From the NCBI RefSeq assembly GCF_018449635.1, contig NZ_JAAVUV010000001.1, positions 496,001-560,000 on the forward strand: a stretch of 64,000 nucleotides of DNA, in the 5' to 3' direction. This document shows, piece after piece, positions 37,838 to 42,655 of the stretch; positions within the stretch are counted from its first letter, which is position 1; the number at the start of each line of letters is the position of its first letter. The notes beneath the pieces were generated by a model. It worked only from the letters and a program-made list of their open reading frames with translations, did no database searches and had not been told where the DNA came from. This DNA is from Caballeronia sp. dw_276 (GTDB lineage: Bacteria > Pseudomonadota > Gammaproteobacteria > Burkholderiales > Burkholderiaceae). The position numbers and the translations under genes were made by a program.

Positions 37838-38260
37838 ATGGCCCAACAGAAAACCAATCCGAAGCTGGAGCAGGCGCTGACCCGTGGCGATCTCGCGATT
37901 CGTCAGGCCAACTCCGGCCGCGCAACCGCGGTGCTGCGCGCGCTCGGCAAGATGATCGTGGAAGCATCGGCGACCATTGGCGTGGAAGCGTTTGTCGTGA
38001 TCCACGACGGCGACAAGATCTACGACCCGGTCGATGGCATGTGGCCGCAGCAACTTCTTGTATCGCTCGATGGTCCGGTGGAAGATGCGGACCCTGACGA
38101 ACTGCGTACGGTCACGCTGATGGCCGACACCCCCGCAACCGTATTCCGGTGCGAATGGCAACGCGCCGACGGCAAGATCGGCCGTCAGGAAGGTCGTCCG
38201 CTCGCGATGGTCGCGTTCATCACCGATGTAGATATTCCCTGGCTCGACGACGAAGACTGA
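37838..38260 (+). CDS. Conserved protein of unknown function
   Basis: This is a 140-residue soluble, acidic protein with no signal peptide. It has an N-terminal helical part (LEQALTRGDLAIRQANSGRATAVLRALGKM) and a beta-rich middle, and ends in a strongly acidic tail (DIPWLDDED). GGAGG stands eight bases before the ATG, so expression is well supported. I do not recognise a functional family. A weak hairpin follows the stop codon. Confidence 0.75.
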   Translation: MAQQKTNPKLEQALTRGDLAIRQANSGRATAVLRALGKMIVEASATIGVEAFVVIHDGDKIYDPVDGMWPQQLLVSLDGPVEDADPDELRTVTLMADTPATVFRCEWQRADGKIGRQEGRPLAMVAFITDVDIPWLDDED

Positions 38261-38280
38261 GCACGCAACATGGTTCACCG

Positions 38281-38313
38281 CTGACGGGCGCATGGCCGTC
38301 CGTCAGATCTTTT
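38281..38313 (+). terminator. Possible terminator after the unknown-function gene
   Basis: CTGACGG and CCGTCAG form a seven-base stem around a 12-base loop that can pair further (GGC/GCC). ATCTTTTCCC follows, giving only a short T run. It is a moderate candidate. Confidence 0.45.
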
Positions 38314-38741
38314 CCCAAGCCCGATAAAGCAATCGCAATAACTACACGCGAAGGGTATCCAACCAATTCAAAATCGGTAATTTAGTAACTGGAAGCGCAA
38401 ATTGCTGGTTGATATATAAATCCGTCGGCTCGTTATAACTATAAAAGAGGCACGTTACCGGTGCATATTCGTTGCTCTCGGGCCTTGGTGAATCAATAAT
38501 AATTCGGCGCGTCGCCTGTTCTCCATACGGTTTTTCATGATACGAAATCGGGCGAGTCGAATCTCCGGGTAAATTCGGAAAAGCGTTAGAACCGTCGTTT
38601 TTTTAAGTATCTTTCAAGTTTTATTCTCCATCGAACACCCCATCAATTGCCTTTAGGCGAGACTTAAATTGCCGCGCGTGTCGTTTGCATCAAGTCGAAC
38701 GCATCGCGGCATCTCCTTCTCGCCAAAAATGGGGTAACAAA
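38314..38741. other. A+T-rich intergenic region before the FeeM-like gene
   Basis: About 430 bases with clearly lower G+C than the surroundings (runs such as TTGATATATAAATCC and CAATAATAATTCGG) contain no credible coding frame. TTATA-AC-TATAA at 38433-38444 is a short palindrome that may be part of a promoter. The region suits a long regulated leader or a silenced promoter for the next gene; no specific signal can be assigned. Confidence 0.5.
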
Positions 38742-39530
38742 ATGGAACAGCTCGATGCAGGCCAAAGCAGTGTTTTAAGCGGTGATCGGATTGACGAGGG
38801 TAAAAGCGTGGAAACGCTGGAACGCGCAGTGCATACCCTCAGGAAACGTGAATCCATGCCGTTCACCATACGTATAGTTCGCGAAACCGCCGATCTCGAT
38901 AAAGTCATCGATATCCGGCGCCTCGCGTACGCACGGCATTTGCCGTCTTTCGCGGAGAAACTCGGTATTGAGGATTGTGATCGTGAAGCCGGCGTGGCAG
39001 TCCTTCTGGCGGAGTCGAAACTCGACGGCGCGCCTATTGGCACAATGCGTATTCAAACTAATGAATATGCGCCGCTGGCGCTGGAACAGTCGGTGCGTCT
39101 GCCTGATTGGCTGAGCAATAGCCGGCTTGCCGAAGCGACACGCTTGGGCGTAGCGGGTGGTGGCATTGGCCGGGTCGTAAAAGTAATGCTTTGCAAGGCA
39201 CTTTGGCTTTATTGCGAGCAGCAGCTTGTCGACTACATGGTTATTACCGCACGCTCGCCGCTCGACCGCGAATATGAAGCAATGTTGTTTGAAGACGTGT
39301 TTGGTGAAAGGCAATTCCTGCCGATGGCGCATGTCGGCGGATTGCCGCACCGGGTACTTGCCAAGGACGTCATGGCGGCGCGGCGCCGCTGGGAGGAAGC
39401 AAAGCATCCGTTATTCCAGTTCATGGTTCACACGGATCATCCGGACCTCGATTTAGAGTTGCCGGATTTATCTTTCCGGCCGGAACCGGTACGATGCCCG
39501 GAAGCGTCGCAACTTGCTTATGGCAGGTAA
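38742..39530 (+). CDS. FeeM-like N-acyl amino acid synthase (GNAT/LuxI fold)
   Basis: This 262-residue protein resembles the FeeM-type N-acyl amino acid synthases, relatives of GNAT enzymes and LuxI acyl-homoserine lactone synthases. The indications are RIVRETADLDKVIDIRRLAYARHL, the strand and turn GTMRIQTNEYAPL, and LAEATRLGVAGG, equivalent to the conserved EVTRLAV-type strand, followed by ALWLYCEQQLVDYMVITARSP. The family joins a fatty acyl chain from acyl-ACP to an amino acid, giving a lipid-like signal or surfactant. Codons are more A/T-ending than in neighbouring genes. The next gene encodes a c-di-GMP enzyme. The function is inferred by family only. Confidence 0.65.
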   Translation: MEQLDAGQSSVLSGDRIDEGKSVETLERAVHTLRKRESMPFTIRIVRETADLDKVIDIRRLAYARHLPSFAEKLGIEDCDREAGVAVLLAESKLDGAPIGTMRIQTNEYAPLALEQSVRLPDWLSNSRLAEATRLGVAGGGIGRVVKVMLCKALWLYCEQQLVDYMVITARSPLDREYEAMLFEDVFGERQFLPMAHVGGLPHRVLAKDVMAARRRWEEAKHPLFQFMVHTDHPDLDLELPDLSFRPEPVRCPEASQLAYGR

Positions 39531-39669
39531 AAAAAGATAGCCCGGCTGTTTGATGGCCGAGGCCGCAAGAGAGGGTGGTGGCGATTCAACTTTTGCGTCG
39601 AGCGACGTTTCTCGTTGTTTCGCCACTGCTGGCGCGGCTTGCGTCATGCATCACGGGGGAAATTCAGGT

Positions 39670-42636
39670 ATGGCGCTGGTTGCCTTATTTTCGCGGGCCA
39701 AGTCCGGATATACCGGGTCGAATATCGACCGGTTTCTGTACGCGTTCGCTGTATATATCGTCCCCACGCTCATTGCACTCGGCACTATCGCTACCCTGGT
39801 CTGGGGTACGCAGCAATTCGATTCGAAGGGCGGTGTAACGCTGCCTTTACACGTGTTGAAAGATCCCACGGGCACACTCGATCCGGCCACGGCATTACAG
39901 CGTATGCCCGGCGCGGTCACAACAAACCGCTTCAATACGCAACTCTCGGAAAAACCTTTCTGGTTTGAATTCGCCGTTCCCAACATGGGTTCGGAGCAAT
40001 CCACCTATGCGGAGCTTCCTTCTCGCCACGCGCAAACGCTGTCGTGTTGGGTTGCATCGACTTTGCAGCCGCTTGGATCCGCGGATCGCCTGAATACGAC
40101 CAACGAATTCTCAACCGTGAAAGCGGGGTTCGCACTGCATCTGGGGCATATGGCACAACCCTTGAACGTCCTGTGCCGTGCGACATTCTCCGGTCCGGCG
40201 CAGATCACGGCGCTCGGTTGGAGCGGTCCCGAATTGCGGCGCGCAGCGCTCGATTTCCAGGAAAGTTCAGGACTGATCGCAGGCGGCCTGCTGACGCTTG
40301 CCGTGTTTGTTTTTGTTACGGCGATGATCAACCGCGAATGGACCTACGTGATCTTCGCGGTCTGGCTCGTCGGCAACTTGCGGCTTTGCGCCAATGCAAT
40401 GGGCTGGGACATGCAATGGCTCGGGCGCGTGATCCCGCCGGACTATATGCAAAGCCTGCGGCAACTCACATTCGCCGCGTATTACCTTCTGACTGCGGCG
40501 CTATTCGCCTCGCTGTTCCGGCGCGAACTGAAAGTGATCGGCTACAAATGGCTCTTGAGGATCATCCAGTATGTCGGGCTCGTGCTGCTGGGCGCGGCCA
40601 TCGTGCTGCCTTATTCGAAGTTCATCCCGACACTGTGGGTGATTACCGGCTTTGGCGTGTTCGTGCTGATTTTCCTGCTGGCGCGACTGGTCTGGCTGAC
40701 CCGATCGCGCACCGTGCTGTGGTATGTGGGATCGCTTGCGATCGTGCTGTTCGCGACCTTCTCCGAAGTAATGGGCGCGGCGTTCGGTATCAAGCTGCTG
40801 GTCGGGGGCGTGAACACCGTGATGGCGGCGTTGTCGTCGAGCATGATGGCCGCGTTCGCGATCGCCGAGCAGATGCGGGCCGAGCGCGAGCATCGCCGGC
40901 AGGCGCAGACGGAATTGCGCAACACGTATGACGTGACACCCATCGGCCTTTTCACACTCGATACCGCCGGCCACTTCGTGCGCGCCAATCCCGCGCTGCG
41001 CGCCATGCTCGGGTTGCAAAAAGCCGAGTACAAGGTTCGGCACTGGAACGACTATTTCGAATCGGGCGCGTGGGGGGCGCTGCAGGCGCTGGCATCGAAG
41101 GGCAGCGAAGGCGAACTCGAAATGGGCGGCGCAGAAGCGCGCGGCAGCGGCGAGCGGCGCTTCCTGCTCAAGGCCACGCGCTCGAATGGCTGGATCGAGG
41201 GATCACTTCAGGATGTGACGGAAAGATCGAAGGCCATCGAACGGCTGCGATTTCTCGCCGAGCACGATCCGCTTACGGGTTCGCTCAACCGGCGCGGCGT
41301 GGAGAAAGCCATTGCGGCGCAAAGCGAGGACGCGTCGTCGTGGGCGCTTGCTTATGTCGATCTCGACCGCTTCAAGCTCGTGAATGATCTGTTCGGGCAT
41401 CGCGCCGGCGATGAAGTCCTGAAGCAGGTCGCCACGCGCACCCGCGCATTGTTCGCGACGGGCTTTCCGTTCGGCCGGATCGGCGGCGACGAATTCGTCT
41501 GCGTGATGGGCGGCATGTCGATAGATGAAGCCGTCGACTGTTGCCAGCAACTGATGAGCGCGTTGAGCGACACGCCGTATCAGGTCGGCAACCGCGCCTT
41601 CCAGGTCAAGGCGTCCGTTGGCCTCGTCGAATGTTCACATGGCGTGCGTGTGCAGGATGCGCTTTCGCACGCGGATCGGGCGTGCCGCGAGGCCAAGAAA
41701 AGCTCGAACGTGCGCATGGTGACGTACCGTAAAGGTGCAACCGCGTTCGAGGAACGTGCGGAAGAATTGAAGCTCGTGGAAACGCTTGGGCGCAATCGAT
41801 TGCCGCCTGGGCTGTTCCTAGTGATGCAGCCGATCATGTCGCTGGCCGCCCCAACAGAGTCGCTGAATTTCGAAGTGCTGTTGCGCATGCGCGCGCCCGA
41901 TGGCGCGACCTTGCCCGCAGGCAAGGTGATCGTCGCAGCGGAAGAGTCGGGGAATATCGCGGCTATCGATAAATGGGTGCTCACCACACTACTTGAATGG
42001 ATCGAGAAGCATCAGGCGTCCCTTCAAAGCACGCGGTTTATCTGCGTGAATCTGAGTGGCGGATCGCTCAACGACGAGCAGTTCATGGAAGACGCCTTTG
42101 CGCTATTCGCGCGTTACCGGCATGTCGTGCCGTATCTCTGTCTTGAGATAACCGAAAGCGTGGCATTGCATGATCTCGGCAATACGCAACGGTTTATTGC
42201 GCGCGTCCATGAGATGGGCGGCAAGATCGCGCTCGATGATTTCGGCGCGGGATATACATCGTTCAAGTATTTAAAGGATCTTTCCGCCGATGCCCTCAAG
42301 ATAGACGGTGAGTTTATCCGCACGATGTGTGCGCATCCGGCGGACATTGCCATTGTCGAGGCTATCGTGGCGCTGGCCCGGAATCTTGGAATGCGCAGCG
42401 TGGCGGAATGGGTCGAGGATATCGACACGCTTCGCGCGCTGAAAGAAATCGGCGTGGATTATGTGCAGGGCTTTTTGATTGCGAAGCCGCAGGAGAGCGG
42501 GGCTATTTTAAGCGCCGCGTCTGCCGCCAGTTTCGTCAAGGACCCAGATGTGGTCGAGTTTATCGACCAGATTGGCGGGAGCGACAAGTCTCTCGCATTT
42601 TCGTTTGATCTCGTTGATAAGGCCGGTCTGCATTAA
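39670..42636 (+). CDS. Membrane PAS-GGDEF-EAL cyclic-di-GMP protein
   Basis: This 988-residue protein has one membrane helix near residues 24-46, an exported domain of about 170 residues, a block of about seven helices (about 222-420), a PAS domain (about 440-545), GGDEF (about 560-715, intact GGDEF at 605-609) and EAL (about 725-975). The EAL signature reads EVLLR (735-739), which keeps the essential E-x-L-x-R, and NLSGG, EITES, DDFGAGYTS (856 on) and QGF are present, so both activities may be real. No RxxD inhibitory site precedes GGDEF. GGGGGA is nine bases before the chosen ATG; an ATG at 39553 would add 39 residues. It follows the FeeM-like gene. Confidence 0.88.
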   Translation: MALVALFSRAKSGYTGSNIDRFLYAFAVYIVPTLIALGTIATLVWGTQQFDSKGGVTLPLHVLKDPTGTLDPATALQRMPGAVTTNRFNTQLSEKPFWFEFAVPNMGSEQSTYAELPSRHAQTLSCWVASTLQPLGSADRLNTTNEFSTVKAGFALHLGHMAQPLNVLCRATFSGPAQITALGWSGPELRRAALDFQESSGLIAGGLLTLAVFVFVTAMINREWTYVIFAVWLVGNLRLCANAMGWDMQWLGRVIPPDYMQSLRQLTFAAYYLLTAALFASLFRRELKVIGYKWLLRIIQYVGLVLLGAAIVLPYSKFIPTLWVITGFGVFVLIFLLARLVWLTRSRTVLWYVGSLAIVLFATFSEVMGAAFGIKLLVGGVNTVMAALSSSMMAAFAIAEQMRAEREHRRQAQTELRNTYDVTPIGLFTLDTAGHFVRANPALRAMLGLQKAEYKVRHWNDYFESGAWGALQALASKGSEGELEMGGAEARGSGERRFLLKATRSNGWIEGSLQDVTERSKAIERLRFLAEHDPLTGSLNRRGVEKAIAAQSEDASSWALAYVDLDRFKLVNDLFGHRAGDEVLKQVATRTRALFATGFPFGRIGGDEFVCVMGGMSIDEAVDCCQQLMSALSDTPYQVGNRAFQVKASVGLVECSHGVRVQDALSHADRACREAKKSSNVRMVTYRKGATAFEERAEELKLVETLGRNRLPPGLFLVMQPIMSLAAPTESLNFEVLLRMRAPDGATLPAGKVIVAAEESGNIAAIDKWVLTTLLEWIEKHQASLQSTRFICVNLSGGSLNDEQFMEDAFALFARYRHVVPYLCLEITESVALHDLGNTQRFIARVHEMGGKIALDDFGAGYTSFKYLKDLSADALKIDGEFIRTMCAHPADIAIVEAIVALARNLGMRSVAEWVEDIDTLRALKEIGVDYVQGFLIAKPQESGAILSAASAASFVKDPDVVEFIDQIGGSDKSLAFSFDLVDKAGLH

Positions 42637-42655
42637 GCCACCGGCATTCCTTTGT

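Follow-up and report, generated by a model that had tools for sequence, protein, structure and literature searches.

Closest described systems and the Caballeronia locus

In Burkholderia cenocepacia, the synthase RpfF makes Burkholderia diffusible signal factor (BDSF), a fatty-acid signal, and is encoded beside its receptor RpfR, a PAS-GGDEF-EAL protein, with the two genes convergent (PMC6361424). Here we analyze a gene pair of comparable layout in a 64,000-nucleotide stretch of DNA (the window) from Caballeronia sp. dw_276, corresponding to C1:496001-560000 of a 6.79-Mb genome (contig NZ_JAAVUV010000001.1) in which the synthase has a single match at E-values up to 0.01. The pair consists of a gene for a FeeM-like N-acyltransferase, the predicted synthase of an acyl signal (38742..39530, + strand, 262 amino acids), and, after a gap of 139 bases on the same strand, a gene for a 988-residue 7TMR-DISM membrane sensor with PAS, GGDEF and EAL domains (39670..42636, + strand). 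This arrangement, as given in a preliminary description of the locus, is confirmed by the coordinates and the domain matches.

By analogy, RpfF/RpfR is the known counterpart of this pair, which can be regarded as a variant built from unrelated proteins. The window synthase has a predicted GNAT/FeeM-like fold, whereas RpfF has the crotonase fold. The receptors also differ: here a jelly roll and seven helices precede the PAS domain, in contrast to RpfR, which has an N-terminal FI domain followed by PAS and no membrane helices (PMC6361424). In addition, RpfR reads its signal by the PAS domain, while the PAS domain of the sensor described here has no special link to the synthase (see below).

The domain order of the sensor (DISMED2, 7TM, PAS, GGDEF, EAL) is also that of RgsP from Sinorhizobium meliloti, in which the EAL domain is an active phosphodiesterase (PMC6107284). 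RgsP, however, has a role in polar growth together with a putative peptidoglycan metallopeptidase, while the sensor here is tied to an acyltransferase, and the excerpt of PMC6107284 names no synthase partner for RgsP. Other 7TMR-DISM proteins of the same kind are RetS, LadS, NicD and SagS. On the enzyme side, the predicted fold of the synthase is closest to FeeM, with GNAT enzymes also among the fold matches. A connection to cyclic diguanosine monophosphate (c-di-GMP) has been proposed for Nas343 and Nas354, which are N-acyl amino acid synthases (NAS) fused to a carboxy-terminal PilZ domain (PMC4897644) that is absent from the window protein. The window synthase differs from the FeeM/NasY type in scoring below the Pfam FeeM cut-off, in having no exosortase in its genome and in having a dedicated sensor adjoining it.

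A 2022 review states that c-di-GMP networks still lack an identified sensor domain for lipids, gives 7TMR-DISMED2 domains in such proteins only a predicted role, and also describes BDSF and its receptor RpfR (PMC8846402), which we would add as an exception to the first statement. Among the papers listed for FeeM, N-acyl amino acid synthases, 7TMR-DISM and c-di-GMP in the open-licence PMC literature, none describes the pair analyzed here in its title or shown abstract.

Joint occurrence and co-divergence of the two genes

Co-conservation had been named beforehand as the first of two tests that could refute the proposed pairing, and the pairing clearly withstood it. Both genes are present in all 18 synthase-bearing genomes among 399 Burkholderiales (E-values up to 1e-5 for the synthase and 1e-10 for the sensor), and sensor sequence adjoins the synthase in 79 of 80 named loci. 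The sensor occurs in 20 of the 399 genomes, with none carrying the synthase only and two (G787 and G814) carrying the sensor only; the Fisher p for this co-occurrence is 2.7e-29, a value to be read in the light of related genomes not being independent. In 17 of the 18 pairs the genes share a strand and their aligned ends are 85-870 bases apart, the widest gap (G710) containing a 244-codon frame on the opposite strand; in G654 they fall on separate contigs, the synthase being at the edge of its own. One genome (G790) has an additional lone synthase. The regions upstream of the two orphan sensors were inspected for another signal enzyme. In G814 the gene there is presumably PhzF-like and resembles the one found ahead of the synthase in G403, and the synthase of G814 has therefore likely been lost. 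The gene upstream of the G787 sensor is one that we take to be diaminopimelate-decarboxylase-like.

Among 121 related genomes (synthase E-value up to 1e-5; sensor searched with its amino-terminal half), 58 contain the synthase, 59 the sensor and 56 both. The synthase-only genomes (G017 and G044) both hold fragments, and the sensor-only genomes hold either fragments (G034) or weak matches under 32 bits (G072 and G099). A same-strand sensor follows 59 of the 62 synthase places in these relatives, with 115-572 bases between aligned ends (median 178) and with some of the 59 being broken genes; the single unbroken lone synthase is at G071:C3:273130. In a further sample, taken from the phylum and comprising 398 genomes, the synthase is found in four and the sensor in three, adjacent in all three, two of these pairs (G000 and G079) overlapping the other samples; the synthase match in G192 is partial, distant and contains a stop. 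No relative was found among viral contigs.

The 80 named loci are the best 80 of 268 relatives from a scan of species genomes. Since they were chosen by similarity to the synthase, their count shows what accompanies the synthase and not the reverse, which was gauged in the three genome samples. The sensor is full length in 74 loci and cut by a contig end in four. In L149 only a short sensor fragment is present, ended by a stop. In L132, which counts neither for nor against adjacency, a 78-codon frame weakly matches the start of the sensor (E-value 1.3e-5) and stops some 30 bases short of the end of the contig. In L079 (Pigmentiphaga litoralis), two synthases stand in a row before one sensor and may yield two products. 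The genes are tail to tail in three of the 80 loci (L094, L099 and L107), as rpfF and rpfR are, which argues that the linkage is not just a matter of one promoter. With a simple gene caller applied to the 80 loci and the window, the sensor was grouped in 74 and the synthase in 70, whereas the next commonest nearby family was found in only 14 of the 81 loci; the linkage is thus not a matter of shared synteny.

Within Burkholderiaceae the distribution of the pair is patchy. The module is sparse: among the 121 relatives, three out of 16 genera of the family have it, as do 18 of the 399 genomes in the order. Its range also extends beyond the family, to Collimonas, Massilia, Rhodoferax, Pigmentiphaga and Rhodocyclaceae.

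Joint inheritance is also apparent in the divergence of the two proteins, which was compared in 71 dereplicated pairs out of 93, using equal column numbers per domain and 300 resamplings. Synthase distances correlate with the distances of every sensor domain. When the remaining four domains are controlled for, the synthase is matched most closely by the seven-helix part (partial r 0.297, best in 200 of the 300 resamplings), followed by the jelly roll (0.200), GGDEF (0.152) and EAL (0.111), while PAS contributes nothing (0.016). These signals suggest only modestly that the synthase tracks particular domains, and they are laden with phylogeny. The synthase and sensor trees have 38 of 68 splits in common, against a null maximum of 2; 27 supported splits are shared, and two of the 36 supported synthase splits are in conflict with a supported sensor split.

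Predicted properties of the synthase and the sensor

The window synthase scores 20.6 bits against PF21926 (FeeM), below the Pfam gathering cut-off of 27, and is for this reason called FeeM-like. A precomputed PF21926 assignment is carried by 108 of 120 relatives (the best 120 of 2399), and in NCBI several of the listed synthase proteins are named FeeM domain-containing and others hypothetical. Since searches among solved structures, by single sequence or by alignment profile, gave no true match to FeeM, the link to this enzyme rests on the weak Pfam match and the fold. FeeM is the sole domain match of the 262-residue protein at E-values up to 1, with no PilZ or other regulatory domain and no match to PF00765, the LuxI-type N-acylhomoserine lactone synthase. 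Elsewhere in the genome lies its single PF00765 match, a weak one (L163, G000:C55:349280-349585) that scores 21 bits, below the cut-off of 24. Glu131 in the LAEATRLGV motif (codon 39132..39134, + strand) is likely the counterpart of the catalytic Glu95 of FeeM, judging from the aligned ranges; it is Glu in 100 of 101 aligned synthases and is missing from five more divergent paired synthases. The enzyme is predicted to join a fatty acid to an amino acid, and its likely product is an N-acyl amino acid or another acylated amine of that sort.

The gap between the genes (39531..39669, + strand) contains no Rfam match and no promoter-like site on the + strand. Across 38260-39800, one promoter-like site was found, on the minus strand (1.4 in shuffles, standard deviation 1.3), together with four terminator-like matches (2.3 in shuffles, standard deviation 1.5, hence about one standard deviation above), one of which is weak and lies within the gap at 39595-39608. 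The presence of a riboswitch or other known RNA within the pair or close to it was also considered and rejected: the lone match, to the Legionella RNA LPR17 model (42575-42652), is below threshold (23.9 bits against 98) and was judged to be chance.

The domains of the sensor are all encoded on the + strand. In the fold model, an amino-terminal helix that likely spans the membrane (residues 15-45; 39712..39804) is followed by a periplasmic, 7TMR-DISMED2-like jelly roll (residues 56-185; 39835..40224) with a conserved SRH motif and two cysteines, and the sensor qualifies as having a DISMED2 jelly roll. The SRH motif was considered as a mark of the ligand and rejected, being lost in three of six divergent sensors despite the presence of their synthases. 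The seven-helix membrane block (residues 186-422; 40225..40935) matches 7TMR-DISM_7TM with 29.6 bits against a cut-off of 29, shows seven helices in the fold model, and is the best conserved sensory region (0.666 versus 0.546 and 0.589). Domain match and fold model also support the PAS domain (residues 423-516; 40936..41217), which precedes a GGDEF domain with an intact motif (residues 530-679; 41257..41706) and an EAL domain (residues 715-940; 41812..42489) in which the motif reads EVL and the catalytic positions are present. Both motifs are intact in the main sensor group, and the EAL positions that we take to be catalytic are kept in every sensor examined. In a divergent group (L154, L157 and L159 versus L156, L158 and L160), three of six sensors have lost the GGDEF motif and kept the catalytic positions of EAL, and the Glu of the LAEATR motif is missing from the group's five paired synthases.

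In a Foldseek search with the sensor model, human WLS was the second match (479 columns, E-value 2.6e-5) and TMEM87A was among the further matches. These GOST proteins likewise carry a jelly-roll or GOLD domain on a seven-helix block, but have no c-di-GMP output, and the likeness is an analogy of shape rather than shown descent. It is also weak (overall TM-score 0.24, identity 8-10%), and in a second alignment GPR156, another kind of seven-helix receptor, has a higher score; we keep the analogy as a lead only. The seven-helix cavity, open to the outer leaflet, holds an acylated hairpin in WLS and a modelled phospholipid in TMEM87A, and the GOLD domain, according to the TMEM87A paper, reads the soluble part (PMC9711517). 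The jelly roll and seven helices of the sensor (39835-40935) match the animal GOST proteins in Foldseek, and a possible shared descent of these with bacterial 7TMR-DISM proteins seems a worthwhile question.

A proposed signal and receptor, and alternative explanations

The preliminary description had suggested a signal producer and its receiver, which the data support in part. The joint inheritance of the two genes is strong and this remains the best reading; we infer the product, the ligand and the action of one protein through the other. To the proposal that the pair is a lipid-signal synthase and a 7TMR-DISM receptor that changes the c-di-GMP level we give about an even chance. A signal and its receptor, as in RpfF/RpfR (PMC6361424), would be the simplest account of a synthase and sensor that are almost strictly shared in a manner robust to orientation and place. 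In such a system, the synthase would take an acyl chain from acyl-acyl carrier protein and join it to an amine, and the amphipathic product would reach the membrane or the periplasm. The sensor is predicted to detect the N-acyl amino acid on the periplasmic side of the inner membrane, where the jelly roll may read the head group and the seven-helix block the chain. Binding would alter the EAL phosphodiesterase, GGDEF would be either another enzyme or a regulator that senses GTP, and the net effect would be a density- or membrane-state-dependent switch between attached and free life. We put forward tentatively, and well short of an even chance, the more specific proposal that the N-acyl amino acid is read as WLS reads lipidated Wnt, with the head group in the jelly roll and the chain in a membrane-open cavity, and is converted directly to a change in c-di-GMP.

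Many GGDEF/EAL sensors have no known ligand. Since a synthase is nearly always found next to the sensor, this enzyme points to a candidate ligand and makes the ligand question for a 7TMR-DISM c-di-GMP receptor directly testable. If true, the proposal would also provide a role for the N-acyl amino acids that enzymes of this family produce. The sensor would then be, to our knowledge, the first of the 7TMR-DISM receptors with a self-made lipid ligand.

The main alternative, which we consider unlikely, is that the arrow points the other way: the sensor would read an outside cue, such as a sugar, and set a c-di-GMP level that governs the synthase, whose product would be a surfactant or membrane lipid for attachment or spreading and not a ligand. 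DISMED2 domains are predicted sugar binders (PMC8846402), a sugar phosphate has been reported as a signal of SagS (PMC8544897), and the NAS-PilZ fusions also support this direction (PMC4897644). The linkage data fit it equally well. The absence of PilZ or any other regulatory domain from the window synthase speaks against it, since such control must then act via another protein or via expression, and so does the tracking of the membrane part over the output domains by the synthase, though modestly. It is improbable that the synthase instead directly modifies the sensor, or some other component of the envelope, with an acyl group, as an enzyme and its substrate rather than a signal and its receptor, even with several protein N-acetyltransferases among the fold matches of the synthase. 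Inherited synteny alone, without any functional tie between the genes, would fit the partial conservation of the surrounding genes within the window's genus, but is very improbable, as the pair persists amid differing neighbours, when present as a second copy, when its genes are opposed in orientation and when carried by plasmids, and as both genes are broken together in several same-genus genomes. A link to exosortase/PEP-CTERM, cited for related synthases (PMC11072679), is hardly credible and was rejected for the 58 synthase genomes, none of which, the window's own included, has the exosortase PF09721 found in 16 of the 121 relatives.

Pairs among other neighbours include L041 (G071), L043, L044, L045 (G054:C34), L046 (G048:C16), L047 (G038:C13) and L048. 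Where there is a second copy, the two genes move together: the pairs listed for G054 and G048 are the second ones in their genomes. In G038, the native sensor (L058, G038:C34) is without a synthase and a complete second pair (L047) lies elsewhere; this sensor may be a natural case of a receptor listening to the signal of another pair. Six divergent pairs, scanned for one neighbour gene each, revealed no common function, the neighbours being two porins (both at second copies in the window's genus), PrpF, DctP, LysE and one protein without a family. In five genomes of the same genus, mostly small and fragmented (G003, G014, G037, G046 and G051), both genes are in pieces, which suggests that the module is dispensable in some lifestyles; assembly errors are possible in these genomes. 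The pair also occurs on plasmids. In L161 (NZ_CP024936.1), a 494-kb Paraburkholderia graminis plasmid typed as conjugative carries a pair in which the sensor is full length and which adjoins another sensor-type diguanylate cyclase. Another pair is found on a 344-kb plasmid, and both plasmid-borne sensors are named EAL domain-containing by NCBI.

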